From: Caulobacter segnis ATCC 21756
Lineage (GTDB): Bacteria > Pseudomonadota > Alphaproteobacteria > Caulobacterales > Caulobacteraceae
Direction of reading: 5' to 3'
DNA: 64,000 nucleotides
NCBI RefSeq assembly: GCF_000092285.1
Contig: NC_014100.1
Location: 1,922,001-1,986,000, forward strand
Shown here: piece after piece, positions 305 through 15,983 of the stretch
Layout of the letters: each line of letters opens with the position of its first letter
Position numbering within the stretch: position 1 is the stretch's first letter
Notes under the pieces: model-generated
Databases searched by the model: none
What the model was told of the DNA's origin: nothing
Seen by the model: the letters and a program-made list of their open reading frames with translations, nothing else
Program-made: the position numbers and the translations under genes

Positions 305-2719
305 ATGTCGAACTACCGGCTTTTGATGGCGGGCTGTTCCGCCCTTGTGTTGCTGGCGCACGCGCAAATCGCTTTCGCCGACGAGGCCGCAACGCCGTCC
401 GACACTGTCGACGAGGTCGTGGTCAAGGCGCGTGACAAGGCGGGGCTGTTGGAGAAGCAGCCCAACAACACCGTCTTCGGCATTGATAAGCCGCTGCTGG
501 AGACGCCGCGCTCGGCCAGCTTCGTCAGCGACGTGACGCTACAGCGCTACGGCATCGAGACGATCGATGGCCTGACCGCCGTCTCGCCGGGCACTTACAC
601 CGCCAGCTTTTATGGCGTGCCGGGCGCGCTGAACATTCGCGGCACCCTGGCCGAGAACTATTTCCGCGGTTTCAAGCGCATCGAGAACCGGGGGACCTAT
701 TCGACCCCGATCGGCGCGGCCGACCAGATCCAGATCGTGCGCGGTCCGCCGACCCCGATCTACGGCTCGGGCAAGGTGGGCGGCATGCTCAACTTCATCC
801 CGAAGTCGGGCAAGAACGAGGGCGGCTACCTGACCGAGCCGACCGGCGAGTTCACGGTGACCTACGGCTCGTACAACAAGAAGAACGCGATCGCCCAGGT
901 GGGCCTGCCCGCGAACTTCGGCTCGGTCACCGGCGGCGTCTATCTGTATGGCGAGGTCGAGGACAGCCACAGCTACTATAAGGGCATCTATCCGCGCCGT
1001 CAGACGCTGGAGGCCTCATCGGACTTCGACCTGGGCGATGGCTGGACCACGGCGTTCGGCGGCATGTACTACCACTCGGACGGTGACGTGCAGACGCCGG
1101 GCTGGAACCGCCTGACCCAGGCCCTGATCGACAACCGGACCTACATCACCGGCCGCGACACCACGCTGAAGGACACCGACGGCAATGGTCGCCTGACGCC
1201 GAACGAGGTCGGCTTCTATCCGTACGGTAGCGCCACATACCTGGCCTACTACGGCTATCCAGACAGCAACGCCCTACACACGTTGGACACCGGCGTCGGA
1301 ACGACCAAGCTTGACCCGCGCACCGTCTACATCAGCGGCGCCGACTTTTCGAAGACGCAGACCAACACCCTCTACTACGACCTGGCCAAGTCGCTGACGC
1401 CCGACAGCACGATCAAACTGCAGCTGTTCTACGACGACCAGGAGAACAAGCGCTTTGTCAGCTACGGCTATCCGGCCTGGTTCGACAGCTCGGTGTGGGA
1501 GGCGCGCCTCACCTACAACTTCGCCTATGACATGGGGATCATCAGCTCCAAGTCGTTCATCGGCGCGTCCTACCGCAGCTTCGACGGCCGCCGTCGCGAG
1601 AGCTACAACAGCGGCATGATCGCGCTGGACCGCCGCGACATCAGCTTCGGGGCCACGCCGACCGACATCGTCGACAGCCCGTTCTCGACCGAGACCGGCG
1701 CCGGCGTGCAGGGCCTGCAGTGGGAGAATGACAACAAGAGCGAATGGACCCAGACGGGCGTGTTCGCGATGACGGACATCAAGGTCGGCGAGCGCTTGAA
1801 CCTGATGCTGGGCGGCCGCTACGACGACTACGACGTCACCTCGGAAGACACCGGCTTCCTCAGCTACCAGATCACGGGCAAGCAAAAGGCCAGCAAGGGT
1901 AAGTTCACCTACAGCGCCAGCGCCACCTACAAGGCCCCGGCCGGCGTGATGCCCTACATCACCTACGCCAAGGCCTCGGCCCTGGAGATGAGCCAGGCGG
2001 GCGACATCGCGCCGGGCCTGGTGGCCGACGCCAGCGACGCCTGGCTGTCCAACAGCGACCTGGCGGAGGCCGGCTTCAAGTTCCAGTGGCTGCGCGGCAC
2101 GCTGGTCGGCTCGCTGGCGGGCTATCGCCAGAACCGCACCCAGCTGACGGGCATCACCGGAACGCCGACCGGCACCCGGGCCAAGGGCGTGGAGCTGGAA
2201 GTCCGCTGGCTGGCCAGCGAGAACCTCAGCTTCACCTTCTCGGGCAACACCCAGCACACCACGGTGAAGGGGCCCGATAACTCGTTCCAGTACATCCCGG
2301 CCTACACCGCCGGCGTGGCGGGGGCGCAGGCCTATGGCGGCACCTATGTGGTGTGGGCGTTCAGCAGCCTGCCGGGCCGCTCGGGCGACTACGACTACAC
2401 CCTGATCCCCAAGTCGGTGGTCAGCCTGTACGGCGCCTACACCAGCGATGAGCATGAGTGGGGCAAGGTCGGCGGCACGCTGGGCGTGACGCATGTCACC
2501 AAGACCTCAGGCACCGTCCAGAACGCCGTGACCTATCCCGCCTACTGGGTGGCCAGCGGCAGCGTCTATTACGAATACGGTCCGTACACGGCCACGCTCA
2601 ATGTCGATAACCTGTTCGACAAGCTCTACTTCACGCCCGACGCCGACAGCTACGCCAACCTCGGCGCGCTGCCCAGCAAGGGGCGCGAGTGGCGCGTGAC
2701 CCTGTCTCGAAAGTTCTAG
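305..2719 (+). CDS. TonB-dependent outer-membrane receptor (siderophore-like plug)
   Basis: A 804-residue outer-membrane receptor that would import a ligand using TonB energy. It opens with a Sec signal peptide (about residues 1-25, ending in an AFA-type cleavage site), then a TonB-box-like stretch DTVDEVVVKA, a plug domain of about 110 residues containing the IQIVRGPPTPIYGSG motif, and a long beta-barrel ending in aromatic F. There is no N-terminal STN domain, so it probably does not signal to a sigma factor. I chose the ATG at 305 because the signal peptide begins there; an in-frame GTG at 275 only adds a non-hydrophobic tail. An MFS permease follows after about 60 bp, and the flavin oxygenase operon follows that, so receptor and permease probably carry the substrate of that pathway across both membranes. 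The plug resembles siderophore receptors, but the context favours an organic substrate. Confidence 0.9.
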   Translation: MSNYRLLMAGCSALVLLAHAQIAFADEAATPSDTVDEVVVKARDKAGLLEKQPNNTVFGIDKPLLETPRSASFVSDVTLQRYGIETIDGLTAVSPGTYTASFYGVPGALNIRGTLAENYFRGFKRIENRGTYSTPIGAADQIQIVRGPPTPIYGSGKVGGMLNFIPKSGKNEGGYLTEPTGEFTVTYGSYNKKNAIAQVGLPANFGSVTGGVYLYGEVEDSHSYYKGIYPRRQTLEASSDFDLGDGWTTAFGGMYYHSDGDVQTPGWNRLTQALIDNRTYITGRDTTLKDTDGNGRLTPNEVGFYPYGSATYLAYYGYPDSNALHTLDTGVGTTKLDPRTVYISGADFSKTQTNTLYYDLAKSLTPDSTIKLQLFYDDQENKRFVSYGYPAWFDSSVWEARLTYNFAYDMGIISSKSFIGASYRSFDGRRRESYNSGMIALDRRDISFGATPTDIVDSPFSTETGAGVQGLQWENDNKSEWTQTGVFAMTDIKVGERLNLMLGGRYDDYDVTSEDTGFLSYQITGKQKASKGKFTYSASATYKAPAGVMPYITYAKASALEMSQAGDIAPGLVADASDAWLSNSDLAEAGFKFQWLRGTLVGSLAGYRQNRTQLTGITGTPTGTRAKGVELEVRWLASENLSFTFSGNTQHTTVKGPDNSFQYIPAYTAGVAGAQAYGGTYVVWAFSSLPGRSGDYDYTLIPKSVVSLYGAYTSDEHEWGKVGGTLGVTHVTKTSGTVQNAVTYPAYWVASGSVYYEYGPYTATLNVDNLFDKLYFTPDADSYANLGALPSKGREWRVTLSRKF

Positions 2720-2780
2720 TTCCCCGCGCGGCGCGCCCCAGCGAGGGATGCGCCGCGAGCTTGCATGGAGGCTCGATGCG

Positions 2781-4085
2781 ATGTCGACGATCCAATGGCG
2801 CTCCTGGACTCTCCTGGGCGCTCTTTCCCTTCTCCTGTTCCTGATCACCGCCTCGACGTTCTCGTCGCTGGGCGTGGTCCTGCCGGCCATGATCAAGGAC
2901 CAGCAGTGGAGCTTCGCTTCGGCCTTCCTTGGCTTTACGCTGTTGGGCGCCTTCTGCGGCGGCTCGTCGTGGCTGCCGGCGCTGCTGATCCGCAAGATTG
3001 GCGTGCGGGCCACGATCATCGTCGGTTCGGCGGTGATGATCGCCGGCTTCATCTGCCTGGCGGTGGCGCGCGGCTTGCCGATCTATCTTTTCGGCACCGC
3101 CCTGCTGGGCGTTGGCTACCAGATGATGGCCCTGATCCCTGGCACGCATCTGTTGTCGATGCTGTTCAAGAAGCGGGCCCTGCCGTTCGGGGTCTATTTC
3201 ACGATCGGCTCGCTGGGGGGCGTCGCTGGTCCGTGGATGGCCCTGGTCGGCATGGAGATCGCCGGCGGCGCCTGGCGGCCGTACTGGGTCTGGCAGGCCA
3301 TCGCCTCGGCTGTGGTGGGGGTCTTGGCCGCCGCCCTGGTTCCCGCCAAGGCTTGGCTGGACAGCGCCGCGGTCGAAACCGACAAGGCCGTGGCCGAAGA
3401 GGCGGCCGCCCAGCAGGCCAACGCCCGAGTCTACCGCACCCAGGTCGACTGGACGGTCAAGGAAGCGATCCGCACCCCGCAATTCTACGTCATTGTCGCG
3501 GCCTATTTCGCCCATCTGCTGGGTGGGGTCACCGCCGTCAGCCTGGCGCCCAGCCACTTCAGCGAGATGGGCGTGGCCTCGGCCGTGGCGGTCGCGGCGC
3601 TGAGTTTGGAATCCTTGATGCAGGTCGTGGCCCGCATGAGCGGCGGTCTGCTGGGCGACCGCATCGACCCGCGCTGGCTGCTCGCGGGCGCGCAAGGGAT
3701 GATGGCCGCGGGCCTGCTGGCCCTGGCCAACGCCGTGACCTGGCCGATGATGGTGATCTTCGCTCTCGGCGTGGGTGTCGGCTTCGGCATGACCGTGCTG
3801 GCCGTCAGCATCCTGCTGCTCAACTATTATGGCCGGAAGAACAATCTCGAGCTCTTCTCGATGGTCTGCCTGGTTGGCGCGGTCTCGGCCTTGGGGCCGG
3901 TGATCGGCGGCTTCATGCGCGACCACCTGGGCGGCTTCGCGCCGACCTTCCAGGTCTTCGCCGCCGTGATCGGGGTGATCTTCGTGGCGGCGCTGTTCAT
4001 GCGCCCGCCGCGCAAGACGATCGAGGAAAGCACGCTCGCGCCCGTCCCGGCGCCCACGCCTGTCCTGCTGCGCGACGCCGCGTAG
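2781..4085 (+). CDS. MFS transporter
   Basis: A 434-residue inner-membrane major facilitator permease with about 12 hydrophobic helices and a charged loop near the middle (about residues 195-220 count as the central cytoplasmic linker). Glycine-rich helices and the LFKKRALPFG loop fit the monocarboxylate/oxalate-formate type branch of the family, so an organic anion is a reasonable cargo (inference). ATG 2781 is preferred over the in-frame upstream ATG at 2748, because the extra 11 residues are charged and lie before a normal helix-1 start. It lies between the TonB receptor and the RutA-like gene, on the same strand with short spacers, so it is probably the inner-membrane uptake step of this catabolic cluster. 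Confidence 0.88.
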   Translation: MSTIQWRSWTLLGALSLLLFLITASTFSSLGVVLPAMIKDQQWSFASAFLGFTLLGAFCGGSSWLPALLIRKIGVRATIIVGSAVMIAGFICLAVARGLPIYLFGTALLGVGYQMMALIPGTHLLSMLFKKRALPFGVYFTIGSLGGVAGPWMALVGMEIAGGAWRPYWVWQAIASAVVGVLAAALVPAKAWLDSAAVETDKAVAEEAAAQQANARVYRTQVDWTVKEAIRTPQFYVIVAAYFAHLLGGVTAVSLAPSHFSEMGVASAVAVAALSLESLMQVVARMSGGLLGDRIDPRWLLAGAQGMMAAGLLALANAVTWPMMVIFALGVGVGFGMTVLAVSILLLNYYGRKNNLELFSMVCLVGAVSALGPVIGGFMRDHLGGFAPTFQVFAAVIGVIFVAALFMRPPRKTIEESTLAPVPAPTPVLLRDAA

Positions 4086-4118
4086 GGACCAAGACCAAAG
4101 AACAAGGAGAGCAACGCC

Positions 4119-5183
4119 ATGTTCCACCGCCCTTCTCAGCACAAGGACTTCGGAGTGTTCCTGCCGGTCGCCAACGGCGGCTGGATCATCTCCAAGACTG
4201 CGCCGGTCCTCGATGGGCTCTACGCTCAGAACCGCGCCGCCGCGGTGAAGGCCGATGAGGTCGGCATGGATTTCGTGATGTCGATGGGCAAGTTCCGCGG
4301 CTTCGGCGGCGAGACCGACCATTGGGGCACGGCTCTGGAGTCGGTGACCATGATGGCCGGCATCGCCGAGGCCACCAAGACCGTGAAGATCTGGGCGACC
4401 ATCCATCCGCTGCTGCAGAACCCGGCCGTGGCGGCCAAGATGATCGCCACCCTGGACCACATCAGCGGCGGTCGCGCGGGCCTGAACATCGTGGCGGGGG
4501 CCTACAAGGGCGAGTTCGACCAGATGGGCGCGTGGGATGACTCCCTGACCCACGACGACCGCTACGCCCTGACCGAGGAGTGGACGACGATCGTCAAGCG
4601 GCTGTGGGCCGAGGACAGCGTCGACTTCCAGGGCAAGTACTTCACGATGAAGGACTGCCAGTCCAAGCCCAAGCCATTGTCCAAGCCGCGTCCGGACCTG
4701 GTCTGCGCCGGCATGAGCGACCGGGGCTTCCAGTTCTCGGTGCGCGAAGCCGACATCTGTTTCATCGGCGGCCGCACCCCGGACGAGCGACGCGACGCCT
4801 CGCTGCGGGCCAAGAAGACCGCCGAGGCGATGGGCAAGAGCATCAAGACCTTCGCCATGTGCACCGTCGTTCACGGCGACACGGACGCCGACGCCGAGGC
4901 CAAGGTCGAGCACTACAAGAGCGGCGCCGACATGGGCGCCATCCTGGCCATGCTGGAAAGCTGGGGCGTGCCGGCCGAGAAGCTCTCCAGCGTGGCGGCC
5001 GCCCAGGGGGCGTTCATGACCCACACCGTGGTCGGCTCGCCCAAGACCTGCGGCGAGCAGATCGAGACGTTCCTGCGCTACTGCGAACTGGACGGCCTGA
5101 TGATGATCTTCCCCGACTATGTCGAGGGGCTGACCATGTTCGGGTCCGAGATCCTGCCGGGCCTGCGGGCGGTGTTTCAGTGA
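4119..5183 (+). CDS. RutA-like luciferase-family flavin-dependent monooxygenase
   Basis: A 354-residue LLM-class flavin monooxygenase close in pattern to RutA, which opens uracil at an amide bond with a flavin peroxide. Shared blocks include VANGGWIIS near the N terminus, the MGKFRGFGGET segment, an IWATIHPLLQNPAVAAKM block, DHISGGRAGLNIVAG and the EHYKSGAD helix. The length matches RutA. The next gene is an isochorismatase-type hydrolase, as in RutA-RutB, and a flavin reductase lies three genes on, as RutF would; the other rut genes are absent. The natural substrate is therefore probably not uracil but another amide or N-heterocycle (inference). The downstream gene starts within its last four bases, which suggests translational coupling. 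The ribosome site AAGGAGAG lies just upstream of the ATG. Confidence 0.88.
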   Translation: MFHRPSQHKDFGVFLPVANGGWIISKTAPVLDGLYAQNRAAAVKADEVGMDFVMSMGKFRGFGGETDHWGTALESVTMMAGIAEATKTVKIWATIHPLLQNPAVAAKMIATLDHISGGRAGLNIVAGAYKGEFDQMGAWDDSLTHDDRYALTEEWTTIVKRLWAEDSVDFQGKYFTMKDCQSKPKPLSKPRPDLVCAGMSDRGFQFSVREADICFIGGRTPDERRDASLRAKKTAEAMGKSIKTFAMCTVVHGDTDADAEAKVEHYKSGADMGAILAMLESWGVPAEKLSSVAAAQGAFMTHTVVGSPKTCGEQIETFLRYCELDGLMMIFPDYVEGLTMFGSEILPGLRAVFQ

Positions 5184-5833
5184 ATGCGATGACGACAGCG
5201 GCGGGCATGGCCGACGATTTGAAAGCCTGGATCGCGCCGTCGCGGACGGCGGTGCTGGTCATCGACATGCAGGTCGACTTCGCCTCGCCCGAAGGCGCTC
5301 TGGGCGCCTATGTCGATATGGCCGTCGTCCAGCCGGCCGTCGCGGCGGCCGAGCGGCTGGTGGAGACCGCCCGGGCGACGGGCGTTCCTGTCGTCTTCGT
5401 GGGCCTGTTCACGACGCCCGAGACCGACTCCGCCAGCTGGAAGGAGCGCATGCGCCGTCGCGGCGGCGACCCGGACAACGAGAGCGCCCTGTGCCGCGAG
5501 GGCGAGGTCGGCTCGGACTTCTACGGTCCCAAGCCCCTGCCCGGCGAGACGGTGGTGAAAAAGACGCGCTACAGCGGCTTCGGCGGCGCCGAGCTCGACG
5601 CGCGCCTGAAGGCGCTTGGCGTCGACACCTTGGTCGTGGCTGGTCTGACCACCGAGTGCTGCGTCGACAGCACCGTGCGCGACGCCTTCAGCCTGGACTA
5701 TCACGTCTTCGTCGCTGCGGACGCCTGCGCCGCCTACGAGGCCGACATCCACGCCGCCTCGCTGAAGGTGATGGAACTGAACAGCGCGATCCTGACCGAC
5801 ACGGCCGCGATCGCCGCCGCCTGGAGCGTCTGA
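5180..5833 (+). CDS. Isochorismatase-family cysteine hydrolase (RutB/amidase-like)
   Basis: A 217-residue cytoplasmic cysteine hydrolase. The family signature is clear: AVLVIDMQVDFASPEG supplies the catalytic Asp, VVKKTRYSGF the Lys, and TTECCVDSTVRDA the nucleophilic Cys. Members hydrolyse amides or ureido groups (N-carbamoylsarcosine, maleamate, ureidoacrylate). Its position directly behind a RutA-like oxygenase suggests it removes an amide or carbamate that the oxygenase exposes. I chose GTG 5180, which overlaps the previous stop (GTGA) and has GGGCGG 8 bases upstream; an ATG at 5189 is the alternative and would cost only three residues. The exact substrate cannot be read from sequence. 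Confidence 0.87.
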   Translation: MNAMTTAAGMADDLKAWIAPSRTAVLVIDMQVDFASPEGALGAYVDMAVVQPAVAAAERLVETARATGVPVVFVGLFTTPETDSASWKERMRRRGGDPDNESALCREGEVGSDFYGPKPLPGETVVKKTRYSGFGGAELDARLKALGVDTLVVAGLTTECCVDSTVRDAFSLDYHVFVAADACAAYEADIHAASLKVMELNSAILTDTAAIAAAWSV

Positions 5834-5836
5834 CCC

Positions 5837-7225
5837 ATGGCCGATGGATTTCCGAACCTGGGCGCCAGCGCCCCCTACAAGGTCACCGAGGCCGATCGCG
5901 CGGCGATCGCCGCCGCCATCGACGAGGCCGAGATCGTCGAGCTGGCCCTGACCCTGGGCAACATTCCCGCGCCGTCCGGCAAGGAGCTGGAGGTCGCCAA
6001 CTACGTCCATGACTGGATGGCGCGCGAGGGCTTCTCGCCGCGCAAGGTCGGGGCGACGCCCGAGCGACCCAATATCATCGGCACGCACGGCGGCAAGGGT
6101 GTCGGCAAGAACCTGCTGTTCACCGCCCACCTCGACACCGAGGCTCCGACCTGGAACCCTGACCTGGACGCCTACAAGTACGCGCCCGAGACCCTGGCCA
6201 ATCCCGAGTGGGAAAAGTGCTGGCTGGAGGACGGCAAGCTGTTTGGCTATCCGATCGCCAACGACCGCGGGCCGATGAGCTGCTTCCTGATCGCGGCCAA
6301 GGCGCTGAAGAAGGCCGGTTACGAACTGGCCGGCAAGATGTACCTGACAGCCTGTCCCGGCGAGATCGGTCCCGAACCGATCGAAGAGCATCGGGGCGTC
6401 GCCTACATGGGCAAGGACATCGGCGCCCATTACCTTTTCCACCATGGCGGCGTCGCGCCGGACTACGCCATCGCCGCCGAGGGCTGCGATTTCGGCCTGA
6501 CCTGGGTGGGGTGCGGCTATGCGGTGTTCCGGTTCCAGGTCTGGGGGGAGGGCGTCTTCACGCCACTGCTCGAGCATCCGGCGACGGCGGCCCAGCATCC
6601 CAACCCGATCTACAAGATCGGCAAGCTGACCGAGGCCATCCACGCCTGGAGCGGCGAGTACGAAAAGAACAGCCGCTACGACAGCCCTGGCGGCGTGGCC
6701 CAACCCAAGTCGCAGATCGCCTCGATCCGGGGCGGCATTCCCTATGCCTTCGGTGCGGGCACCGAGCTGGTCAACCTTTATCTGGAGGTGGGCCTGACGC
6801 CCAAGCAGCGTGTCGCCGACGTTCAGCATTCGCTGGAGGCCCTGGTCCGCGAGGCCGGCCTGGGCCGCATCGACATCGAGCCGGTCGTGGTGCGCCATGG
6901 CTTCGAGGCCGACGCCGCCGAGGTGGCCCCGCTGGTCGGCGCCGTCGACGTGGCCACCCAGCTGGGTCTCGGCCATCCCGTCGCCCTGGCCAACCGGGTA
7001 TATTCCAGCATGTGGCGAGACCACAATGTCTTCAACATGCACCGCATCCCGGCCATCACCACCGGCTTCCGCCGCTGGCGGCCGACGCCGAAGGATCTGG
7101 TCGACAGCGCCCTCATCTACGCCCTGACAGCCCTGGCGATCTGCGGTCGCGCCGGCCCCGATGAGAGCGTCGCGCGACCGGCGTCGGCGGTCTATCCCGA
7201 TAACCCGTTCGGAACCGAAGGATGA
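5837..7225 (+). CDS. M20-family metallohydrolase (amidase/peptidase-like)
   Basis: A 462-residue protein of the M20 co-catalytic zinc hydrolase type. Metal-ligand motifs are recognisable: TAHLDTEAP gives His and Asp, the NDRGPM segment the bridging Asp, the PGEIGPEP region the Glu pair, and FNMHRIPAITTGF a C-terminal His. Family members cleave N-acyl amino acids, dipeptides or carbamoyl amides. There is no signal peptide, so it acts in the cytoplasm. It starts three bases after the isochorismatase-type gene and overlaps the flavin reductase start by four bases, so all are probably translated together. The role is likely a second amide-bond cleavage in the same pathway (inference). It is somewhat longer than simple ArgE/DapE enzymes, with an insert between the two halves. 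Confidence 0.82.
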   Translation: MADGFPNLGASAPYKVTEADRAAIAAAIDEAEIVELALTLGNIPAPSGKELEVANYVHDWMAREGFSPRKVGATPERPNIIGTHGGKGVGKNLLFTAHLDTEAPTWNPDLDAYKYAPETLANPEWEKCWLEDGKLFGYPIANDRGPMSCFLIAAKALKKAGYELAGKMYLTACPGEIGPEPIEEHRGVAYMGKDIGAHYLFHHGGVAPDYAIAAEGCDFGLTWVGCGYAVFRFQVWGEGVFTPLLEHPATAAQHPNPIYKIGKLTEAIHAWSGEYEKNSRYDSPGGVAQPKSQIASIRGGIPYAFGAGTELVNLYLEVGLTPKQRVADVQHSLEALVREAGLGRIDIEPVVVRHGFEADAAEVAPLVGAVDVATQLGLGHPVALANRVYSSMWRDHNVFNMHRIPAITTGFRRWRPTPKDLVDSALIYALTALAICGRAGPDESVARPASAVYPDNPFGTEG

Positions 7226-7716
7226 GCGCCGCGCCCCAATCACACGCGCCCGAGCCGGCCGATTTCCGCAAGGCCATGGGCAGTTTCGCGGCGGGCGTGA
7301 CCGTGGTCACCACCTGCCACGACGGCCGGCTGGTCGGCACGACGGTCAGCGCCTTCAGTTCTGTGTCGATGGACCCGCCGCTGGTCATGGTCTGCCTCAA
7401 GCGCGACAGCCGCACCCTGGCGGCGCTGAGCCAGTCCGGGACCTTCTGCGTCAACATCCTGGCCCGGGAGCAGGGCGACCTGGCCTACCGTTTCGCCAAG
7501 AGCGGGGCCGACGACCGCTTCGCCCTCACGGCCGTCGAGGCCGGGATGTGTGGCGCGCCGCTGCTGGACGGCTGTGTCACGGCCATCGAATGCGAACTGC
7601 GCGACGCCCACGACGGCGGCGATCACGAGATCCTGGTCGGACGCGTGCTGCGCGTGGTGACCGACGAAACCAAGACGCCGCTTGTCTATGTGCGCGGCGC
7701 TTTTCTCAACGCTTAG
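7222..7716 (+). CDS. Flavin reductase-like domain protein (FMN reductase component)
   Basis: A 164-residue flavin reductase of the HpaC/RutF type. The FRKAMGSFAAGVTVVTT opening, the TVSAFSSVSMDPPLVMVCL block and the FCVNILAREQ segment are diagnostic. It would use NAD(P)H to supply reduced FMN to the RutA-like monooxygenase encoded three genes upstream, which has no reductase domain of its own. The ATG overlaps the M20 gene stop (ATGA), so it belongs to the same transcript. Conserved operon position and length make this one of the safer calls in the island. Confidence 0.9.
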   Translation: MSAAPQSHAPEPADFRKAMGSFAAGVTVVTTCHDGRLVGTTVSAFSSVSMDPPLVMVCLKRDSRTLAALSQSGTFCVNILAREQGDLAYRFAKSGADDRFALTAVEAGMCGAPLLDGCVTAIECELRDAHDGGDHEILVGRVLRVVTDETKTPLVYVRGAFLNA

Positions 7717-8541: not shown

Positions 8542-9344
8542 GAGTTCTTCTGCTGGGCGCGGCCGGCGGCATCGGCTCGGCGATCCGGGAGGGGCTGGCC
8601 GGCCGCTACACCCTGATGCGGCTCGCCGACATCGCGCCGCTGTCGGCGCCGGGCCAGGGCGAGGAGACCGTGCGGGTCGACCTGCTGGACCTCGACGGCC
8701 TGGCCGCCGCCATGGCCGGGATCGACTGCGTCGTCCACATGGCCGGCGTTCCGGTCGAGCCCGAGACCAACGCGTGGGAGCAGGTGCTGCCGGCCAATAT
8801 CGTCGGCGTCCACAACCTGTTCGAGGCCGCGCGGCTCGCTGGCATCAAGCGCGTGCTGTTCGCCTCGTCGCATCACGCGGCGGGCTTCCATCGGCGCGAG
8901 ACGCCGACCGCCGAGACGCTGGTCCCTCGCCCCGACAGCTACTACGGCGTCAGCAAGGTGTTCGGCGAGGCTATGGGCCGGATGTACGCCGACAAGTTCG
9001 GCCTGCAGGTGCTGTCCCTGCGCATCGGCGCCTATCGCGAGCGGCCGTCGGACCCGCGCCAACTGGCCGTGTGGATCAGCCCGCGGGACATGGTCGAGCT
9101 GGTCCGCTGTGGCGTCGAGGCGCCCGATTTCGGCTATGCGACCGTCTACGGCGTCTCGGCCAACACGCGGACCTTCTGGGACAATTCGGCGGTCGCCTTC
9201 CTCGGCTATCAACCCCGCGATAACGCCGAGGCCTGGGCGGCCGAGATCATGGCCGGGCCGCCCGAGGCCCCGGCCGCCGCGCCGTTCCAGGGCGGCGGGT
9301 ACTGCGCCAAGGGCTTCGTCGGCGATCTCGGGCGCGTCGACTGA
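8538..9344 (+). CDS. NAD-dependent epimerase/dehydratase, uronate dehydrogenase-like
   Basis: A 268-residue extended-SDR protein. The Rossmann motif LLGAAGGIGSAI is at the N terminus, and the YYGVSKVFGE motif gives the active-site Tyr and Lys. The blocks VHMAGVPVE, RVLFASSHHAAG, RIGAYRERP and FWDNSAVAFLGYQP match the pattern of bacterial uronate dehydrogenases (Udh), which oxidise C1 of hexuronates. A sugar acid, or a sugar-like portion of the pathway substrate, is possible. The start is TTG at 8538, inside the previous stop (TTGA); no better start exists near the Rossmann motif. It is the last gene of this operon and its stop abuts the stop of the convergent VOC gene with no spacer. Confidence 0.8.
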   Translation: MRVLLLGAAGGIGSAIREGLAGRYTLMRLADIAPLSAPGQGEETVRVDLLDLDGLAAAMAGIDCVVHMAGVPVEPETNAWEQVLPANIVGVHNLFEAARLAGIKRVLFASSHHAAGFHRRETPTAETLVPRPDSYYGVSKVFGEAMGRMYADKFGLQVLSLRIGAYRERPSDPRQLAVWISPRDMVELVRCGVEAPDFGYATVYGVSANTRTFWDNSAVAFLGYQPRDNAEAWAAEIMAGPPEAPAAAPFQGGGYCAKGFVGDLGRVD

Positions 9345-9845
9345 CTATTCCCGCGTGAAGTCGGCCGGGATCTGCGGATCCGGGCCCGCCTTGCCCCACA
9401 GGACGATCTCGTTGCCCCAGGGGTCGCGGAAGGCGTGGTTGTAGCCGTTGAATTCCTTCCAGTAGTGGTTCCGCCACAGGACGCTGGCGCCGAGCTCTTC
9501 GGCGGTCCCGAGGATGCGGTCGGCGCTGTCGTCGTCGCTGATCAGCACCCAGACGCGCGGCTTGCGGCCTTCGGTGCTCAGCGCGCGGGGCTCGACGCCT
9601 TCGGGTTCCGGATGAGGGCGGGCGTTCGCGGCCTTGAAAATCCCAAGGTGCAGGTTGCCGATCTCGCTGTCGGTCCCGTCGGGCTTCTTGAAGAAGCCGC
9701 CCGGCACCATGCGGTGGTAGACGCCCTCTGGGCGGGCGTCGTTCTGCCAGCCGAACACCTTGGCGTAGAAGTCGCCGGCTTCGGACGGGTCATCGGAGGC
9801 CAGGTCGACGAAGATCAGGGTGTTGGTCAAGGCTTGCGCTCGCAT
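9345..9845 (-). CDS. VOC-family (glyoxalase/dioxygenase fold) protein
   Basis: A 166-residue vicinal-oxygen-chelate protein with two beta-alpha-beta-beta-beta repeats. TNTLIFVDLASDDPSEAGDFYAKVFGW marks the first module, and the FRDPWGNEIVLW segment the metal-ligand strand of the second. Members include glyoxalases, extradiol dioxygenases, epimerases and antibiotic-binding proteins, so the chemistry is not fixed by sequence. It is the last gene of a three-gene minus-strand operon (TauD, SDR, VOC) and its stop codon directly touches that of the plus-strand operon. A role in the same degradation pathway is likely from position only. Confidence 0.8.
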   Translation of the reverse strand: MRAQALTNTLIFVDLASDDPSEAGDFYAKVFGWQNDARPEGVYHRMVPGGFFKKPDGTDSEIGNLHLGIFKAANARPHPEPEGVEPRALSTEGRKPRVWVLISDDDSADRILGTAEELGASVLWRNHYWKEFNGYNHAFRDPWGNEIVLWGKAGPDPQIPADFTRE

Positions 9846-9852
9846 TTGGGGG

Positions 9853-10686
9853 TCAGTCGTTGAAGCCGATGGAGAGGCTCAGGGCCTTCCAGGCTTCGAT
9901 GTCGGCGGCCAGGCCCTGGGCGGCGTAGCCGGCGTACTTCAGGGCGTCCTCGCCCAGCAGCAGGTGCATCGGCGGGGCCTCGACATCGGCGATCGTCAGG
10001 ATCGCCCGGGCCGCCTTGGCCGGGTCGCCGGGTTCCTGGCCGGCGTGATCGGCCATGATCCGCTCGGCGTCGCGGGCGAGGCCGTCATAGTCGGAGAGCT
10101 TGTCGGCCACGATGACCTTGGAGCCCGTGGCGAAGTCCGTGCGCAGCCCGCCGGGCGCGACATTGACGACCAGGATCCCGAGCTCCGCGACTTCCTGGGC
10201 CAGGGTCTGGGTCAGGCCTTCCAGCGCCCATTTGCTGGCGCAGTAGACGCCCGTGCCGGCCCAGACGGCCAGGCCCGAGACCGAGGTGATGTTGATGATC
10301 CGGCCCGCGCGGCGCGCGCGCATGGCGGGCAGGACGGCCTTCAGGACCGCGAGGGGCCCGAAGACGTTGACCTCGAACTGGGCGCGAACCTCGTCCAGAG
10401 ACGCCTCTTCGACCGCGCCGACTAGTCCATAGCCGGCGTTGTTGACCAGGACGTCGATGGTCCCGGTCGCGCGTTCGGCCTTGGCGACGGCGGTGGCGAT
10501 GGCCGCCGTGTCAGTGACGTCCATGACGACGCCGTGCGCGCGCCCGGGCGCGAGGGCTTCGAACGCGGCGACGGCCTCGGGCCTGCGCACAGTGCCGACG
10601 ACGACGTCGCCCCGCTCCAGGGCGGCGCGGGCGATCTCGCGGCCCAGGCCGCCGGAGACGCCGGTGATCATCCAGGTCTTGGTCAT
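9853..10686 (-). CDS. SDR-family oxidoreductase
   Basis: A 277-residue classical short-chain dehydrogenase. It has the cofactor motif TGVSGGLG, the NNAG motif, an active-site Ser in ITSVSG and the YCASK Tyr/Lys pair. The C-terminal region is of the type common in uncharacterised ketoreductases. It lies seven bases upstream of the VOC gene and 22 bases behind the TauD-type gene on the minus strand, so the three probably form one transcript. It would oxidise an alcohol or reduce a ketone formed in the pathway; the substrate cannot be inferred. Confidence 0.85.
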   Translation of the reverse strand: MTKTWMITGVSGGLGREIARAALERGDVVVGTVRRPEAVAAFEALAPGRAHGVVMDVTDTAAIATAVAKAERATGTIDVLVNNAGYGLVGAVEEASLDEVRAQFEVNVFGPLAVLKAVLPAMRARRAGRIINITSVSGLAVWAGTGVYCASKWALEGLTQTLAQEVAELGILVVNVAPGGLRTDFATGSKVIVADKLSDYDGLARDAERIMADHAGQEPGDPAKAARAILTIADVEAPPMHLLLGEDALKYAGYAAQGLAADIEAWKALSLSIGFND

Positions 10687-10708
10687 GCCAACTCCACCGA
10701 AAGCGGGA

Positions 10709-11566
10709 TCAGTACGGCTTGTCGCCCTTCACCCAAAGGCGGTGCATGGTCCGGATGTACTTGGTGTCGTCGTACAGCGTGCCGGTGTGCAGGGTGCAGC
10801 GGTTGTCCCACATCAGCAGGTCGCCGACCCGCCACTTGTGGCGATAGACGAACCGCTCCTCGGTCATGAACTCGACCAACTCGTCCAGTAGCGCCAGACC
10901 TGCAGGACCCGGCATGCCGATCACTTCGGTGACGGTGCCGGTCGAGGGCCACAACGCCTTGCGACCATCCGCCGGATGGGTGCGGATCAGCGGGTGTTCG
11001 ACGTCGGGATTGGCCGCTTCCAGCTCGGGCGACAGGGTCTGCTGTTGGCCGAACTGGCGAGTGGCCATGAAGTGCTTATAGCTGTGGTGCAGCCGAAGAC
11101 CCTCCAGCAGGGCCTGCTTGTCGGCGGGCAGGGCGTTCCAGGCCGCGCAGCCGTCGGCCAGCAGGGTGTCGGAACCTTCGTCAGGGACCTCGACCGCGTA
11201 GAGCATGGTCAGCATGACCGGCTCGGGCTTGTAGCTGTAGTCGGTGTGCCAGCCCACGCCGTCATTGTGGGCGCCGATCGGCTTTCCATCGACAACGCGA
11301 TTGCTGAGGATGAAGATCTTCGGATAGCCGGGCAGGGTGAAGCGGGTTTGGGTGTGGTCTTCCGGATCGCCGAACCGTCCGATGAACCGCATCAGGTCGT
11401 CGGGCGTCATCTTCTGGCCGCGCAGGGCGATGGCGCCATGGCGGTGGAAGGTGTCGACGACCTGGTCCAGGGCCGCGTCGGGGGCGGAGGCCAGGTCGAT
11501 GCCGGAGATCTCGGCCCCGAAGCCCGGCTTCAGGTCCTTGATGGCGATGTCTGCGGTCGGCGTCAT
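10709..11566 (-). CDS. TauD/TfdA-family Fe(II)/2-oxoglutarate dioxygenase
   Basis: A 285-residue second TauD-type dioxygenase. GWHTDYSY carries the first His and Asp of the iron triad, LMWDNRCTLHTG the distal His, and RTMHRLWVKGDKPY the 2-oxoglutarate Arg. The start is the ATG at 11566, with a GGAGGA ribosome site four bases upstream; the frame stays open further upstream but that part reads as promoter DNA. The gene heads the minus-strand operon and diverges from the Rieske gene. The intergenic region has a paired 22-bp repeat, one copy about 53 bp upstream of this start codon. Reaction probably an oxygenolytic cleavage or hydroxylation in the catabolic pathway. Confidence 0.88.
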   Translation of the reverse strand: MTPTADIAIKDLKPGFGAEISGIDLASAPDAALDQVVDTFHRHGAIALRGQKMTPDDLMRFIGRFGDPEDHTQTRFTLPGYPKIFILSNRVVDGKPIGAHNDGVGWHTDYSYKPEPVMLTMLYAVEVPDEGSDTLLADGCAAWNALPADKQALLEGLRLHHSYKHFMATRQFGQQQTLSPELEAANPDVEHPLIRTHPADGRKALWPSTGTVTEVIGMPGPAGLALLDELVEFMTEERFVYRHKWRVGDLLMWDNRCTLHTGTLYDDTKYIRTMHRLWVKGDKPY

Positions 11567-11839: not shown

Positions 11840-13063
11840 ATGAGCCCGCGGCCGCCCCTTCTCAGCGATGTCTTCTTCGAAGGCCTGTCACGCTCGATGC
11901 GGGACGTCGAGACCGCAGAGACCCTGCCGCCCGCCTGCTATGTCGACGCCGACTTCTACGAGTTCGAGAAGGAGGCGCTGTTCAATCACGAATGGCTGTG
12001 CGTGGGCCGCGTCGACTGGGTCAAGGAGCCCGGAGACTTCTTCACGACGCGGATCATCGGCGAGCCGATCATCGTCACGCGCAACCGCGACAACCAGATC
12101 AAGGCGATGTCGGCTGTGTGCCAGCACCGGGCCATGCTGGTGGCCGAGGGCAGGGGTAATACGCGCGGCTTCGTGTGTCCCTATCACCACTGGGTCTATT
12201 CGCTGAACGGCGACCTGGTGAACGCCCCGGCCATGGAGCGCACCTGCGAGTTCGACAAGAAGGCCATCAAGCTCCCGACCTTCAAGGTCGAGGTCTGGCT
12301 GGGTTTCATCTTCATCAACTTCGACGCCGAGGCCCCGCCGCTGGCGCCGCGCCTGACGACCGTCGAGGCGGCGGTGGCCAATTACGACCTTTCGAACGCC
12401 GATGGGCTCTCCCCGCCGATGACCGGCCAGTTCGCCTGGAACTGGAAGGTCATGTTCGAGAACAACAACGACGGCTACCACGCCAGCAAGCTGCACCGGG
12501 GCCCGCTGCACGACTTCATTCCGAGCGAGCTGTGCAGCTTCCCCGAGGCGGGCGAGGGGGACGCCGGCTTTCTGCGCTACAACGGCACGCTGCACCGAGA
12601 CGCCAGCTTCAACCCGACGCAGAAGGCGGTGTTGCCGGTGTTCCCGAACCTGACCGACGAGGACCGCAACCGCGCCACCTTCGCCAACATCCCGCCGACG
12701 CTGTCGCTGGTGATGACCAGCGACATGGTCATCTACCTGATCCTGCGCCCGACCGGTCCCGAGACCATGGAGCAGGACACGGGAATCCTCGTGGCGCCTG
12801 GCGCCACGGAGAGCCCCGGCTTCGAGGAGCGCCTCGAGATGATCATGACCTCGGCCGGCAAGATCATCGCCCAGGACATGCATGTCGACGAACTGGTCCA
12901 GCAGGGCCTGCGCTCGCGGTTCGCCATCCGGGGGCGCTACTCCTGGCAGGAGGGGGCGCAGGTGCAGTTCAACCGCTGGCTCACGCCGCGTTACCAGAAG
13001 GCCTGGGCCGCCCTGAAAGCCGGCGAGGCGCCCGCCGCCGCCAATACGGAGGCCGCCGCATGA
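11840..13063 (+). CDS. Aromatic ring-hydroxylating oxygenase, Rieske alpha subunit
   Basis: A 407-residue Rieske non-haem iron oxygenase. The [2Fe-2S] ligands are C94, H96, C113 and H116 (CQHR...CPYHH). The mononuclear iron site is in NNNDGYHASKLH, with D211 bridging and H214 and H219 as ligands. The catalytic domain continues to about residue 380. Such enzymes hydroxylate or dealkylate aromatics using electrons from a ferredoxin and reductase; neither partner gene is present in this window, so they must be supplied from elsewhere. The gene overlaps the next (extradiol dioxygenase) by four bases, ATGA. It begins an operon with ring-cleavage and formamidase genes, which suggests an aromatic intermediate. 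Confidence 0.92.
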   Translation: MSPRPPLLSDVFFEGLSRSMRDVETAETLPPACYVDADFYEFEKEALFNHEWLCVGRVDWVKEPGDFFTTRIIGEPIIVTRNRDNQIKAMSAVCQHRAMLVAEGRGNTRGFVCPYHHWVYSLNGDLVNAPAMERTCEFDKKAIKLPTFKVEVWLGFIFINFDAEAPPLAPRLTTVEAAVANYDLSNADGLSPPMTGQFAWNWKVMFENNNDGYHASKLHRGPLHDFIPSELCSFPEAGEGDAGFLRYNGTLHRDASFNPTQKAVLPVFPNLTDEDRNRATFANIPPTLSLVMTSDMVIYLILRPTGPETMEQDTGILVAPGATESPGFEERLEMIMTSAGKIIAQDMHVDELVQQGLRSRFAIRGRYSWQEGAQVQFNRWLTPRYQKAWAALKAGEAPAAANTEAAA

Positions 13064-13863
13064 GCCGTCTGCCCGTCATCTTCTTCGGTCACGGCAGCCC
13101 GATGATCGCGCTGGAGACCAACGACACCACACGGGCCTGGAAGGCCATGGGGGACGCTGTCGGCAAGCCCAAGGCGATCCTTTGCGTCTCGGCCCACTGG
13201 CTGACGCGCGGGGTCGCGGTGACGGCCATGACCAGGCCCCGCACAATCCACGACTTCGGCGCGTCCTTTCCCAAGGCGCTCTTCGATCAGCAGTATCCGG
13301 CGCCCGGCTCGCCCGAGCTGGCCGCGCGGGTGCGTGAAATCCTCAGCCCGACGCCGGTGGCGATGGACGAACAGGCCTGGGGCCTGGACCACGGGACTTG
13401 GTCGGTCCTGGGCAAGGCGTTCCCGGACGCCGATGTGCCGGTGGTGCAGCTCAGCATGGACGCGAGCAAACCGCCCGCCTGGCATTACGAGATCGGCCAG
13501 CGCCTGGCGCCCCTGCGCGACGAGGGCGTGCTGATCGTCGGCACTGGCAACATTGTCCACAATCTGCCGGCCATGGACTGGGGCGACCGGAACTGCGCGC
13601 CCTACGACTGGTCGCAGCGCTTCAATGACTACATCAAGACCGCCATCGTCGAGGACGCCCCGCAGCGCGCTGTCGACTTCGAGAGCCAGGGCCAGGACGC
13701 CAAGCGCTCCGTGCCGACGCCCGACCACTACTGGCCGCTACTGTACGTGCTGGGCGCGCGCCTGCCCGGCGACGTCCCGACCTTCGCCCCCGACCATATC
13801 GAGCACGGCTCGCTGAGCATGACTTCCGTCACGCTCTCCATCCCCCATTTGGCCAGCGCCTGA
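13060..13863 (+). CDS. Class III extradiol dioxygenase (DODA/LigB type)
   Basis: A 267-residue protein of the 4,5-DOPA extradiol dioxygenase/YgiD group of the LigB superfamily. FFGHGSPM provides the first metal His, SAHW another, and IVGTGNIVHNLP a conserved block with a His. Members use Fe(II) or Zn(II); the iron enzymes cleave catechols next to one hydroxyl. The ATG overlaps the Rieske stop, so oxygenation of an arene and cleavage of the resulting diol would be made together. This pairing is the strongest argument that the island degrades an aromatic ring. Whether this member cleaves rings or is a YgiD-like dioxygenase of unknown substrate cannot be told from sequence. Confidence 0.85.
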   Translation: MSRLPVIFFGHGSPMIALETNDTTRAWKAMGDAVGKPKAILCVSAHWLTRGVAVTAMTRPRTIHDFGASFPKALFDQQYPAPGSPELAARVREILSPTPVAMDEQAWGLDHGTWSVLGKAFPDADVPVVQLSMDASKPPAWHYEIGQRLAPLRDEGVLIVGTGNIVHNLPAMDWGDRNCAPYDWSQRFNDYIKTAIVEDAPQRAVDFESQGQDAKRSVPTPDHYWPLLYVLGARLPGDVPTFAPDHIEHGSLSMTSVTLSIPHLASA

Positions 13864-13876
13864 GGACCGAGACCCG

Positions 13877-14953
13877 ATGCCCTTCATCTGCGAACCCGGC
13901 CAGACCCGTCCCGACGTCGTTCCCGGCGCCTTGCACACCCTGAAGGCCACGCCCCAAACGGTGCATTGGGGCTATTTCGATCCTTCGACGCCGCCGTCGC
14001 TGCGTATCAAGAGCGGGGACCTGGTCCAGGCCGAGGCGATCACCCACCATGCCGGCGACGCGCCCGAGCTGATGATGGACGAAGGCGTCACGCGGATCTT
14101 CAAGGAGATCCCCGAGGACGACCGCAACCCCGGCGTCCACATCATGACGGGGCCCATCTACGTCGAGGACGCCAAGCCTGGCGATGTGCTGGAGGTGCGC
14201 TACCTGCGCATGGTTCCGCGCAACAACTACGGCTCCAACCTCGCGGCCAATTGGGGCTATCTCTACAAGGAGTTCGGCGAGAAGGAGCGGGTGACGATCT
14301 ACGAGCTGGATCCGAACACCAACACCGCCAGCGCGCTCTACGCCTATGACTTCGAGGGCAAGTATCTGATCCCCGGCACGATCACCCATTGTCCCGAGTG
14401 CGACCGCCAGCCGGCCCTGGAGGGGATCCGGATTCCGGCCCGGCCGCACCTGGGCACCGCGGGCGTGGCGCCGGCGGTCGACGGCCGCGTCAGCACCATT
14501 CCGCCCGGCGAGCACGGCGGCAACATCGACAACTGGCGCATCGGGGCCGGGGCGACGATGTACTATACTGTCCAAGTCGACGGCGGCTTGTTCTCCATCG
14601 GCGACCCCCACGTCAGCCAGGGCGATGGCGAGCTGTCGGGCACGGCCATCGAGAGCTCGCTGAACGTCCTGATGCAGATCGTCCTGCGCAAGGACATCCA
14701 GACCCCCGGCCCCCTGCTGGAGACGCCAAAGTGGTGGATCGTCCATGGCTTCAATGAAGACCTGAACCTGGCCATGCGCGACGCCTCGACCAAGATGCTG
14801 AGCCTGCTCAGCGAGCAGGTCGGGCTGTCGAAGAACGACGCCTATTCGCTGATGAGCGTGGCCGCGGACTTTGGCGTCACCCAGGTCGTCGATGGCACCC
14901 AGGGCTGCCACGTCAGGATTCCCCGCGACATCTTCCCCAAGCTCAAGGAATAG
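13877..14953 (+). CDS. Acetamidase/formamidase family protein
   Basis: A 358-residue member of the FmdA/AmdA family, which hydrolyses short amides such as formamide and acetamide to ammonia and the acid. Recognisable blocks are the HWGYFD opening, THHAGDAPE, TGPIYVEDAKPGDVLEV, FSIGDPHVSQGDGE and GTAIESS. It is cytoplasmic, with no signal peptide. It lies 13 bp behind the extradiol dioxygenase and ends just before the AraC regulator. In a pathway that also has a RutA-like oxygenase and two other amidase-type enzymes, a formamide or small-amide by-product is a natural substrate (inference). Confidence 0.88.
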   Translation: MPFICEPGQTRPDVVPGALHTLKATPQTVHWGYFDPSTPPSLRIKSGDLVQAEAITHHAGDAPELMMDEGVTRIFKEIPEDDRNPGVHIMTGPIYVEDAKPGDVLEVRYLRMVPRNNYGSNLAANWGYLYKEFGEKERVTIYELDPNTNTASALYAYDFEGKYLIPGTITHCPECDRQPALEGIRIPARPHLGTAGVAPAVDGRVSTIPPGEHGGNIDNWRIGAGATMYYTVQVDGGLFSIGDPHVSQGDGELSGTAIESSLNVLMQIVLRKDIQTPGPLLETPKWWIVHGFNEDLNLAMRDASTKMLSLLSEQVGLSKNDAYSLMSVAADFGVTQVVDGTQGCHVRIPRDIFPKLKE

Positions 14954-14957
14954 GACG

Positions 14958-15983
14958 ATGAAGGCTTGGTCGTTTAGCACCGAAAGCCATCCCCGCGCCG
15001 AGCGGGCCGAGGCCTGGCGTGATGCGATGGGACGCCTGGGCCTGCCGATCGAGGGACTGTCGGCCGGCGAGCCGGCCGCGGCTTCGGTGATCTGCCTGAC
15101 CTCCCCCCTGGGCATCGAGTTCGCCCTGGTCGAAGCCGGCGCCCAGACGATTTCGGGCCGACTTTCGGGGCAGCCCGCCGCCGTGTGGCTGGCGGTTCTG
15201 CTGCATGGCGAAGCGACCCTGGTGACCGACGATCTGGCTGTCGGCGTCTCTCCCGGGGACATCGCCTTCGGCCCCACGGGGCAGGCGGCGGCTCTTCGCT
15301 TGGACACCCGCTCGCGCCTGCTCTTCGTCCGCGCGCCTCGCGTGGCCCTGGATCACCGCCTGATCAAGCCCTTCAACTTGCGCGTGGGGTGGCTGGAGGG
15401 ATCAGAGGGCGTGCCGCGCATCCTGTCCGACCTGCTGCGCGGTACGGCCGAGGAACTGGAGAACTTGTCGGTCGATCAGTTGCGACCGGTCGACCTGGCT
15501 CTGACGGAATTCTTGGCTCAGTGCTTGCTGGAGCGGGGGGCGGCTGCGTCAGACGCTCTGGATCCTTCGACCCCGACGGCGCATCTGCAGCGCCTCTGCC
15601 AAACCATCGAGACCCTGCTGCCGGATCCGGACCTGTCGCTCCGTCGCGTGGCGGACGAGGAGGGCGTCTCGCCACGCTACGTGCAGAAGCTGTTCGCGTC
15701 GGCCAACGAAACCTTCAGCCACTATTTGCGCTCGCGTCGTCTGGAGCGGTGCCGGATCGATCTGGCCAGTCCGCAACATGCGCGGCTTTCTATTTCGGAG
15801 ATCTGCTTTCGCTGGGGCTTCAACGGCTCGGCGCATTTCAGCAGAGCTTTCCGCGAACAGTACGGCCGGTCGCCACGTGAATTCAGGAACGCGTGCGAGG
15901 CTGGTGTGTCCAGAGATCTTACGTCCGCACTTGCGCTGAAGCCGGCGTCCGTCGTCCCGAGTTTGAGCGCACTGAACTCATAG
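14958..15983 (+). CDS. AraC-family transcriptional regulator
   Basis: A 341-residue activator. The N-terminal two-thirds is a cupin-like sensor domain (AraC_binding_2 type), and the C-terminal about 100 residues carry two helix-turn-helix units: the first in LRRVADEEGVSPRYVQKLF, the second in ISEICFRWGFNGSAHFSRAF followed by REQYGRSPREFR. The start at ATG 14958, five bases behind the formamidase stop, gives the expected domain length. It is last in the Rieske operon and so probably controls the cluster, binding the repeats in the 11.57-11.84 kb divergent promoter and perhaps the weaker copy at 100-115. The effector is probably a pathway substrate or intermediate. Confidence 0.9.
   Translation: MKAWSFSTESHPRAERAEAWRDAMGRLGLPIEGLSAGEPAAASVICLTSPLGIEFALVEAGAQTISGRLSGQPAAVWLAVLLHGEATLVTDDLAVGVSPGDIAFGPTGQAAALRLDTRSRLLFVRAPRVALDHRLIKPFNLRVGWLEGSEGVPRILSDLLRGTAEELENLSVDQLRPVDLALTEFLAQCLLERGAAASDALDPSTPTAHLQRLCQTIETLLPDPDLSLRRVADEEGVSPRYVQKLFASANETFSHYLRSRRLERCRIDLASPQHARLSISEICFRWGFNGSAHFSRAFREQYGRSPREFRNACEAGVSRDLTSALALKPASVVPSLSALNS

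Follow-up and report, generated by a model that had tools for sequence, protein, structure and literature searches.

The window analysed here, a 64-kb stretch (C1:1922001-1986000) of a one-contig 4.66 Mb genome, contained a cluster of 15 genes at positions 305..15983, and the nearest named loci in a genome-contig scan were those of Caulobacter (98% identity). The cluster is a conserved, partly plasmid-borne catabolic set that combines known enzyme families in a new way and is unnamed in the literature searched. All 15 genes named by the initial annotation were open frames within this region, and 14 of the 15 products carried the expected Pfam family. The features were as follows.

305..2719, plus strand: TonB-dependent receptor, uptake (Pfam PF00593/PF07715; possible open-frame start at 275)
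2748..4085, plus strand: MFS permease of the lactate/oxalate-formate type (PF07690; NCBIfam SfMCT and oxalate/formate families, below cut-off)
4119..5183, plus strand: RutA-like flavin mononucleotide (FMN) monooxygenase, proposed opener of a pyrimidinedione ring (TIGR03612 272.7 bits, cut-off 498.3; best PDB match RutA, 231.8 bits)
5180..5833, plus strand: isochorismatase-fold cysteine hydrolase, proposed ureido (carbamoyl) hydrolase (PF00857; NCBIfam RutB 90.7 and biuret hydrolase 90.3 bits, below cut-off)
5837..7225, plus strand: M20-fold aryl-aminohydrolase-like (NaaA-like) enzyme (PDB 5-nitroanthranilic acid aminohydrolase, E 1.4e-84)
7222..7716, plus strand: flavin reductase, proposed partner of the RutA-like enzyme (PF01613; HsaB 142.9 and RutF 107.3 bits, below cut-offs)
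7729..8541, plus strand: TauD1, 2-oxoglutarate dioxygenase (PF02668; NCBIfam taurine dioxygenase 274.6 bits, cut-off 313)
8538..9344, plus strand: NAD-dependent sugar dehydrogenase-like SDR of the Udh/Azf type (NCBIfam G6PDh_Azf 150.9 bits, cut-off 400)
9345..9845, minus strand: VOC-fold protein, strongly conserved (PF00903)
9853..10686, minus strand: SDR dehydrogenase (PF00106; NF004824 351.3 bits, above the cut-off of 298)
10709..11566, minus strand: TauD2, 2-oxoglutarate dioxygenase (PF02668)
11840..13063, plus strand: Rieske oxygenase alpha subunit, GbcA/CntA-like (PF00355 and PF00848; NCBIfam GbcA 124.6 bits, cut-off 670; best PDB match carnitine monooxygenase)
13060..13863, plus strand: 4,5-DOPA-type (DODA-type) extradiol (LigB) dioxygenase of 267 amino acids (PF02900; NF007914 346.8 bits, above the cut-off of 233)
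13877..14953, plus strand: amide hydrolase of the acetamidase/formamidase family, FmdA (PF03069; PDB 3b9t 254.1 bits)
14958..15983, plus strand: AraC-family regulator, FeaR-like (PF12833, PF14525; FeaR 111.8 bits, cut-off 199)

The first eight genes, from the receptor to the Udh/Azf-type SDR, formed a plus-strand run with intergenic gaps of -4 to 33 bases, and the last four, Rieske-DODA-FmdA-AraC (module 2), formed another, in which the gaps measured -4 to 13 bases. The minus-strand VOC-SDR-TauD2 block was located between these two runs. The start of the AraC gene was most likely the ATG at 14958, and that of TauD2, as read from its translation, would lie near 11566 rather than at 11788. The VOC protein had a mean column identity of 64% over 11 chosen sequences, with residues His44, His66, His127, and Glu146 invariant. 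The Rieske enzyme was represented by its alpha subunit, and no beta subunit was detected by Pfam among the 15 proteins.

The Rut-like and Rieske/extradiol genes were associated among relatives. In 61 related genomes, the M20 protein had any match (E <= 0.001) in 26 and a strong match (best E <= 2e-214) in 21. The Rieske gene, counted at E <= 1e-60 minus two paralogues of 32–33% identity in genome G020, occurred in 18 of the 61 genomes and FmdA in the same 18, all of them within the 21 M20-positive genomes; neither was found without the M20 gene in any of the 61. The Fisher p value of this association, with kinship ignored, was 1e-12 for all 61 genomes together; within the genus, where 20 of 37 were positive, it was 1e-8. 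Three M20-positive genomes were without module 2, namely G035, G053, and G017, the last being 85% complete with its M20 gene on a contig of 3.3 kb. A distance of about 32–41 kb separated the M20 gene from the Rieske gene in G004, G009, G019, and G021, and module 2 kept its usual order in the two of these that were read, G021 and G004; in G003 the two genes were on separate contigs. The grouping seems to go beyond chance because the set re-clusters in other genera and because the halves co-occur in 18 of 18 relatives with the second half. Both halves look like parts of one pathway, in agreement with the single catabolic system that the initial annotation had proposed.

The wider distribution was described with 84 loci (L-numbers), consisting of the best 80 of 119 M20-alignment relatives from the genome-contig scan and four plasmid loci. 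These loci had been selected through the M20 gene, except for one selected through the RutA-like gene, so that M20 counts are circular and the others are not; the set includes closely related strains, and family calls followed identity limits set in this analysis. The RutA-like gene was present in 77, the isochorismatase in 79, the MFS permease in 73, and TauD1 in 63 of the 84 loci, followed by the SDR (49), the Rieske, VOC, and FmdA genes (45 each), the TonB receptor (44), DODA (39), and TauD2 (30). Among the 67 loci that were 18 kb or longer, 32 contained all nine core genes, and these 32 came from no fewer than seven named genera: 14 were from Caulobacter, 5 from other Caulobacteraceae (Phenylobacterium among them), 12 from Sphingomonas, Sphingobium, Novosphingobium, Altericroceibacterium, or uncultured sources, and the last from Kozakia. 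In the comparison of gene order across genomes, which the initial annotation had suggested, the set recurred in other genera and its order was shuffled between lineages. The triad of RutA-like, isochorismatase, and M20 genes stood alone in loci such as Pseudomonas L102, Paraburkholderia L121, Acinetobacter L122, and Hyphomonas L083, and the Hyphomonas-type loci L089, L092, and L094 had M20, FmdA, Rieske, and VOC genes with no RutA-like gene nearby. The TonB receptor headed the operon in Caulobacteraceae and Parvibaculum loci and, in Hyphomonas, was located close to the triad. When 398 Pseudomonadota genomes were sampled evenly, this genome and one congener were the only ones with the M20 gene at E 1e-60, which indicates a rare and patchy distribution of the set.

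The plasmid pKB16680_1 of Kozakia baliensis carried all nine core genes together with a GbcB/PaaE-type reductase, a TonB receptor, and a nitroreductase-family gene, and IS5 copies were located at both sides of the block and once inside it. The Kozakia-type Rieske reductase was found in three of the 84 loci, L103, L108, and L123 (Kozakia itself). A 42% match in the present genome at C1:2553345 was rejected as a dedicated partner, as it follows a frame that is VanA-like Rieske by eye. On the plasmids of Acinetobacter L122 and Paraburkholderia L121, the triad was accompanied by MFS, flavin reductase, and regulator genes near insertion sequences. In L084, L086, L090, and L099 (Parvibaculum and alike), the operon was followed by small recurring genes and a TonB C-terminal protein (checked with Pfam on L099 only), suggesting dedicated energy coupling of the receptor.

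The RutA-like protein was distinguished from RutA in its pocket. RutA cleaves uracil between N3 and C4 (PMC10005588, PMC7662398), and its residue Trp139 borders the si-side, substrate-side cavity (PMC10005588). Residues were mapped through a printed RutA alignment, with Phe224 left out, in 76 RutA-like rows consisting of the window protein and 75 loci (47–100% identity, including an identical second copy in this genome). The Trp139 position was occupied by Ala in 51 rows, among them the window protein, and by Ser in 25, whereas all 29 true RutAs from this genus had Trp there. The following residue was Tyr or Phe, and the O2-site residues Thr105, Asn134, and Val136 were kept, in all 76 rows. 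This apparently roomier pocket fits a larger substrate but names none. The second NCBIfam match of the protein was SfnG (174.9 bits, compared with 272.7 for RutA), and its score against RcaE (5w48) was 53.9 bits, compared with 231.8 against RutA. True uracil use by the cluster was rejected on the basis of the sub-cut-off Rut scores and of a separate true RutA encoded elsewhere in the same genome (692 bits).

A second pair of RutA-like and isochorismatase genes, without an M20 gene, was located at C1:2059144-2060858 (L128, L130) behind an OmpW gene, and it adjoined genes assigned by eye to sugar metabolism. The two RutA-like copies encoded identical proteins and differed at 20 of 1065 DNA positions, 19 of them third positions. 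The isochorismatase copies shared 199 of their 218 codons, counting the stop, and the 200-base flanks on either side were unrelated. This pair looks like a recent copy or the product of gene conversion. Paralogous pairs without the M20 gene were also observed in G001 and G007.

The M20 protein had no Pfam match, and NCBIfam gave weak DapE/ArgE matches. Its only close relative in the PDB was 5-nitroanthranilic acid aminohydrolase (NaaA), with the next different protein at E 0.0099. The alignment with NaaA spanned residues 32–439 and kept the HLDT and GEI motifs, and residue Asp143 aligned with a cysteine in NaaA. Usual M20 enzymes have two glutamates at the position of the GEI motif. NaaA uses a divalent metal and converts an aryl amine to a hydroxyl by aromatic substitution (PMC9814641, PMC10306065). 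Because this sole close solved relative removes an aryl amine, the M20 protein is probably better read as an aryl-amine hydrolase than as an amide hydrolase.

The isochorismatase scored 90.7 bits for RutB against a curated cut-off of 377.95 bits. Its top PDB matches were an isochorismatase-family protein, a cysteine hydrolase, and a putative amidase, and RutB (69.7 bits), biuret hydrolase (61.6 bits), and an N-carbamoylsarcosine-amidase-related protein (60.0 bits) came lower; a putative ureido hydrolase is the best reading of this sequence. The three C–N bond hydrolases of the initial annotation were not supported as amidases, since the close relative of the M20 protein removes an aryl amine and the isochorismatase was nearest to RutB and biuret hydrolase, far below the cut-off. 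The triad was near-constant, with the RutA-like gene in 64, the isochorismatase in 64, and the M20 gene in 66 of the 67 long loci. It would agree with three steps, in which a ring-fused pyrimidinedione is opened, the ureido group is stripped, and the resulting ortho-amino acid is hydrolysed. The first two steps on an aromatic-fused uracil would give an ortho-amino aryl carboxylate, the 5-nitroanthranilate pattern, which is the substrate type expected for a NaaA relative.

An AraC-family regulator and an FmdA-type amidase domain were joined in one frame in L119:11518-13902 and L089:16165-18483. Fusion open reading frames of 771–854 amino acids were found in 23 loci of sphingomonads, Hyphomonas-type loci, and Aliiglaciecola; two of the 23 were checked with Pfam and the rest were assigned by frame length and BLAST labels. 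The fused FmdA domain kept 103 of 192 columns conserved in 27 free-enzyme rows. The fusion could act as a sensor derived from an enzyme or as a protein with both functions, and in these three groups the amidase-fused regulator may sense the pathway. No paper on an AraC–formamidase fusion was found in a full-text literature search.

Among the neighbouring genes, 16 of 30 unlabelled families that recurred in at least three loci were annotated, and several of them bear on the substrate. A ribokinase gene was present in 23 of the 84 loci, directly upstream of the RutA-like gene in sphingomonads (e.g. L101). The scanned member scored 254.7 bits, below the cut-off of 299.65, and 18 aligned rows showed the N-x-D, GGKGANQ, glutamate, and GAGD motifs with small changes in a few. 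A 53% match at C1:3666011 of this genome was rejected, as it follows a FliP-like frame (by eye). The Udh/Azf-type sugar dehydrogenase occurred in seven of the 84 loci, all Caulobacter, and never together with the ribokinase. A Tsx-type nucleoside channel preceded the operon in Variovorax L114 and Paraburkholderia L121, and a protein similar by eye was located in Pseudomonas L102. An Amidohydro_1 deaminase lay near the triad in six of the 84 loci, inside the operon in L101, L107, L109, and L115. Its best matches, none of which reached the cut-off, were 5'-deoxyadenosine deaminase and TRZ/ATZ hydrolases; guanine-type deaminases scored lower. A RutE-family protein was found in eight of the 84 loci.

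Further observations concerned single regions. In the metagenome locus L082, an NtaA/DmoA-family monooxygenase (12200-14237; 341.9 bits, cut-off 279.7) adjoined TauD1 and the triad, and a neighbouring frame was also luciferase-like by eye. The monooxygenase may be related to riboflavin lyase or be of the sulfur type, and a sulfur-type block is as likely. Downstream of the cluster in the window, alpha/beta-hydrolase-like, cupin-like, and cytochrome c-like open frames were recognized by eye at 16647-20440; the first two gave no match as queries in 80 related loci. A cobalamin riboswitch, the only riboswitch detected in the window, was located at window positions 28516-28723 on the minus strand (125.3 bits); six loci scanned in the same way gave none, so riboswitches offered no clue to the substrate.

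Taken together, the cluster may encode one aerobic pathway for a uracil (pyrimidine-2,4-dione) fused to an electron-poor aromatic ring, pentose-bearing in some lineages, with a flavin (lumichrome or riboflavin) as the likeliest compound; we put this forward tentatively, and infer reactions and substrate alike. The substrate would be taken up by the TonB receptor and the MFS permease. The RutA-like enzyme, with the flavin reductase, would break the N3–C4 bond, and the isochorismatase-type enzyme would split off the ureido group, yielding CO2 and ammonia. An ortho-amino (hetero)aryl carboxylate would then be hydrolysed to a hydroxy or oxo acid by the NaaA-like enzyme. The TauD enzymes may act in oxidation by decarboxylative hydroxylation, in loss of an N-alkyl sugar, or in both. 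The Rieske enzyme would yield a catechol, the DODA-type enzyme would cleave it, and the formamidase-type enzyme could hydrolyse an amide fragment. The class of chemistry is reasonably supported, and the nitrogen-bearing (hetero)aromatic substrate of the initial annotation is upheld as the best reading. Of its sugar-acid or ether side group, a sugar part is possible, with the Udh-like gene here and ribokinase in other lineages, and nothing was found for an ether. Overall, the earlier interpretation was partly supported. Within this class a flavin is the likeliest choice of substrate, though at less than even odds, with pteridines next. It is favoured by the ribokinase, sugar-dehydrogenase, and nucleoside-channel genes linked in some lineages, together with the Rieske and extradiol genes; a compound that unites a pentose and a catechol ring with a fused uracil would most readily be a flavin.

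Several observations weigh against the flavin pathway, including differences from a known lumichrome pathway that are given in the closing comparison. TauD2, VOC, and the SDR have no step in the scheme, and the 15 proteins included neither a hydratase nor an aldolase that could process a product of meta-cleavage. At least one core gene was missing from the stretch fetched in 35 of the 67 long loci, and the Rieske gene in 27 of 67. Residue Leu65, which lines the O2 cavity of RutA (PMC7662398), was Met in all 76 RutA-like rows, compared with Leu in 29 of 29 true RutAs, and the O2 site is only partly kept because of this change. The ribokinase was linked in just 23 of the 84 loci and was not linked in this window, and its split from the Udh-type gene may reflect lineage alone. 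The deaminase has no clear role for a flavin substrate, and no FMN riboswitch was detected at Rfam gathering scores in the window or in six loci.

The same triad logic could apply to a pteridine (lumazine, pterin, or a folate fragment), with the leftover pyrazine oxidised by the Rieske, TauD, and DODA enzymes and the amidases finishing the degradation. The presence of several amide or amine hydrolases and few carbon-handling enzymes among the 15 fits this unlikely alternative, but the DODA protein scored above the catechol-extradiol cut-off and the linked ribokinase would be left unexplained; we know of no common pterin with a ribose. The deaminase near the triad can be read in the same direction, as early pterin deamination is known in Variovorax (PMC9513972), although its nearest relatives were 5'-deoxyadenosine deaminase and TRZ/ATZ hydrolases and not guanine-type enzymes. 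That deaminase, together with the Tsx-type channel and the ribokinase, would suit a purine- or deazapurine-type nucleoside (e.g. modified guanosine or the queuosine base), which these proteins would handle while the triad opens the six-membered ring. However, no nucleosidase or phosphorylase was found among the 16 annotated families, and the Rieske and catechol extradiol enzymes would have no obvious role, which makes a nucleoside improbable.

A benzenoid substrate of the anthranilate type (quinazolinedione, isatoic, or nitroanthranilate-like), which the triad would turn into a salicylate-type acid for the Rieske and DODA enzymes, accounts for the nearest solved relative of the M20 protein being 5-nitroanthranilate aminohydrolase. 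There is little probability in this account, as the NaaA reaction needs a nitro group to stabilise its intermediate (PMC9814641), no 5-nitrosalicylate dioxygenase cupin was found among the 15 proteins, and the sugar genes stay unexplained. An organosulfur pathway, in which the luciferase-like and TauD enzymes release sulfite, was suggested by the near-cut-off taurine dioxygenase score of TauD1 (274.6 versus 313) and by SfnG as second match of the RutA-like protein. It is very improbable, since RutA scored well above SfnG for that protein and such a pathway has no place for the isochorismatase, the aryl aminohydrolase, the extradiol enzyme, or the formamidase.

The breakdown of cofactors is barely mapped. 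If the flavin pathway is true, a portable set in culturable members of Caulobacter, Sphingomonas, and the acetic acid bacteria would open to testing the route of the riboflavin degrader Pseudomonas RF, for which no gene or protein is known to us. An oxygen-dependent ring-opening step would also be added to the chemistry of fused pyrimidines, and an annotation signature, Ala or Ser at the RutA Trp139 position with a linked NaaA-like gene, would separate the cluster from uracil use. Lumichrome is a plant signal and quorum-sensing mimic (PMC12746152), and its removal would therefore matter in the rhizosphere.

No paper with this gene set was found in the full-text literature search, and no characterised pathway with an identical gene order; the initial annotation had likewise known no named pathway with the set. 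No such gene set was named in the available parts of reports on gut riboflavin breakdown (PMC12934955) and folate breakdown (PMC9513972). A literature search for pterin with RutA returned nothing on topic, as judged from the listing. The Rut uracil pathway (RutA-G) shares RutA-, RutB-, and RutF-like parts with the cluster, and a RutE-family member with some loci; unlike in Rut, the RutA-, RutB-, and RutF-like parts scored far below the Rut cut-offs and the pocket Trp was lost. The NaaA system of Bradyrhizobium JS329 is matched in its aminohydrolase by the M20 protein, by sequence only, and no cupin domain corresponding to its monocupin 5-nitrosalicylate dioxygenase was found among the 15 proteins. 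The riboflavin lyase RcaE system (Microbacterium, Devosia) also combines a luciferase-like monooxygenase with a flavin reductase. The rca cluster carries a ribokinase, which is paralleled in relatives of the present cluster and not in the window.

A close parallel in chemistry was the lumichrome catabolism LumA-Y of Nocardioides simplex (PMC12746152; commentary PMC12752717). It resembles the chemistry proposed for the cluster in fused-pyrimidinedione opening, urea hydrolysis, and ortho-amino hydrolysis (LumH, LumI, LumM), and in its later Rieske and extradiol enzymes (PMC12746152). The opener differs, being oxygen-dependent and RutA-like in the cluster and a hydrolase of 80 kDa, LumH, in the Lum pathway. 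The other differences belong with the points counted against a flavin above: the extradiol enzyme is a LigB-type protein of 267 amino acids rather than the 46 kDa LumE, the Rieske enzyme is of the single-subunit GbcA type rather than alpha plus beta, and the P450 LumU, the thiamine pyrophosphate (TPP) enzymes LumKL, and the xanthine-oxidase-type LumJ were not found among the 15 proteins. An RcaE-like enzyme was likewise not found among the 15. The parallel with LumI and LumM lies in reaction logic and protein size only. Lumichrome breakdown by the known Lum enzymes was rejected because of the absence of P450, TPP, and xanthine-oxidase-type proteins from the 15. TauD, VOC, and formamidase are additions of the cluster relative to Lum.

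The riboflavin degrader Pseudomonas RF was identified in 1958, but no culture of it was kept and none of its enzymes has been reconstituted; the available text of PMC12746152 gives no gene or protein for its route. The pyrimidine ring is attacked first, and ribityl-dimethylquinoxalinedione is converted with loss of ribose to dimethylquinoxalinedione and then to dimethyl-carboxypyrone, with urea and oxalamide (PMC12746152). If a pyrone were the end product, as in the RF route, the lack of genes for pyrone degradation would be in keeping with it. A candidate enzyme class for each step of this route can be assigned, by inference, in the cluster or its relatives. It is conceivable, though doubtful, that the cluster represents the gene set of the lost RF route, entirely or partly plasmid-borne among alpha-, beta-, and gamma-proteobacteria, in which a flavin-dependent RutA relative would destroy flavin, an aromatic-substitution aminohydrolase would act on an aminoquinoxaline acid, a 2-oxoglutarate dioxygenase would release the sugar, and Rieske and DODA cleavage would lead to the pyrone.

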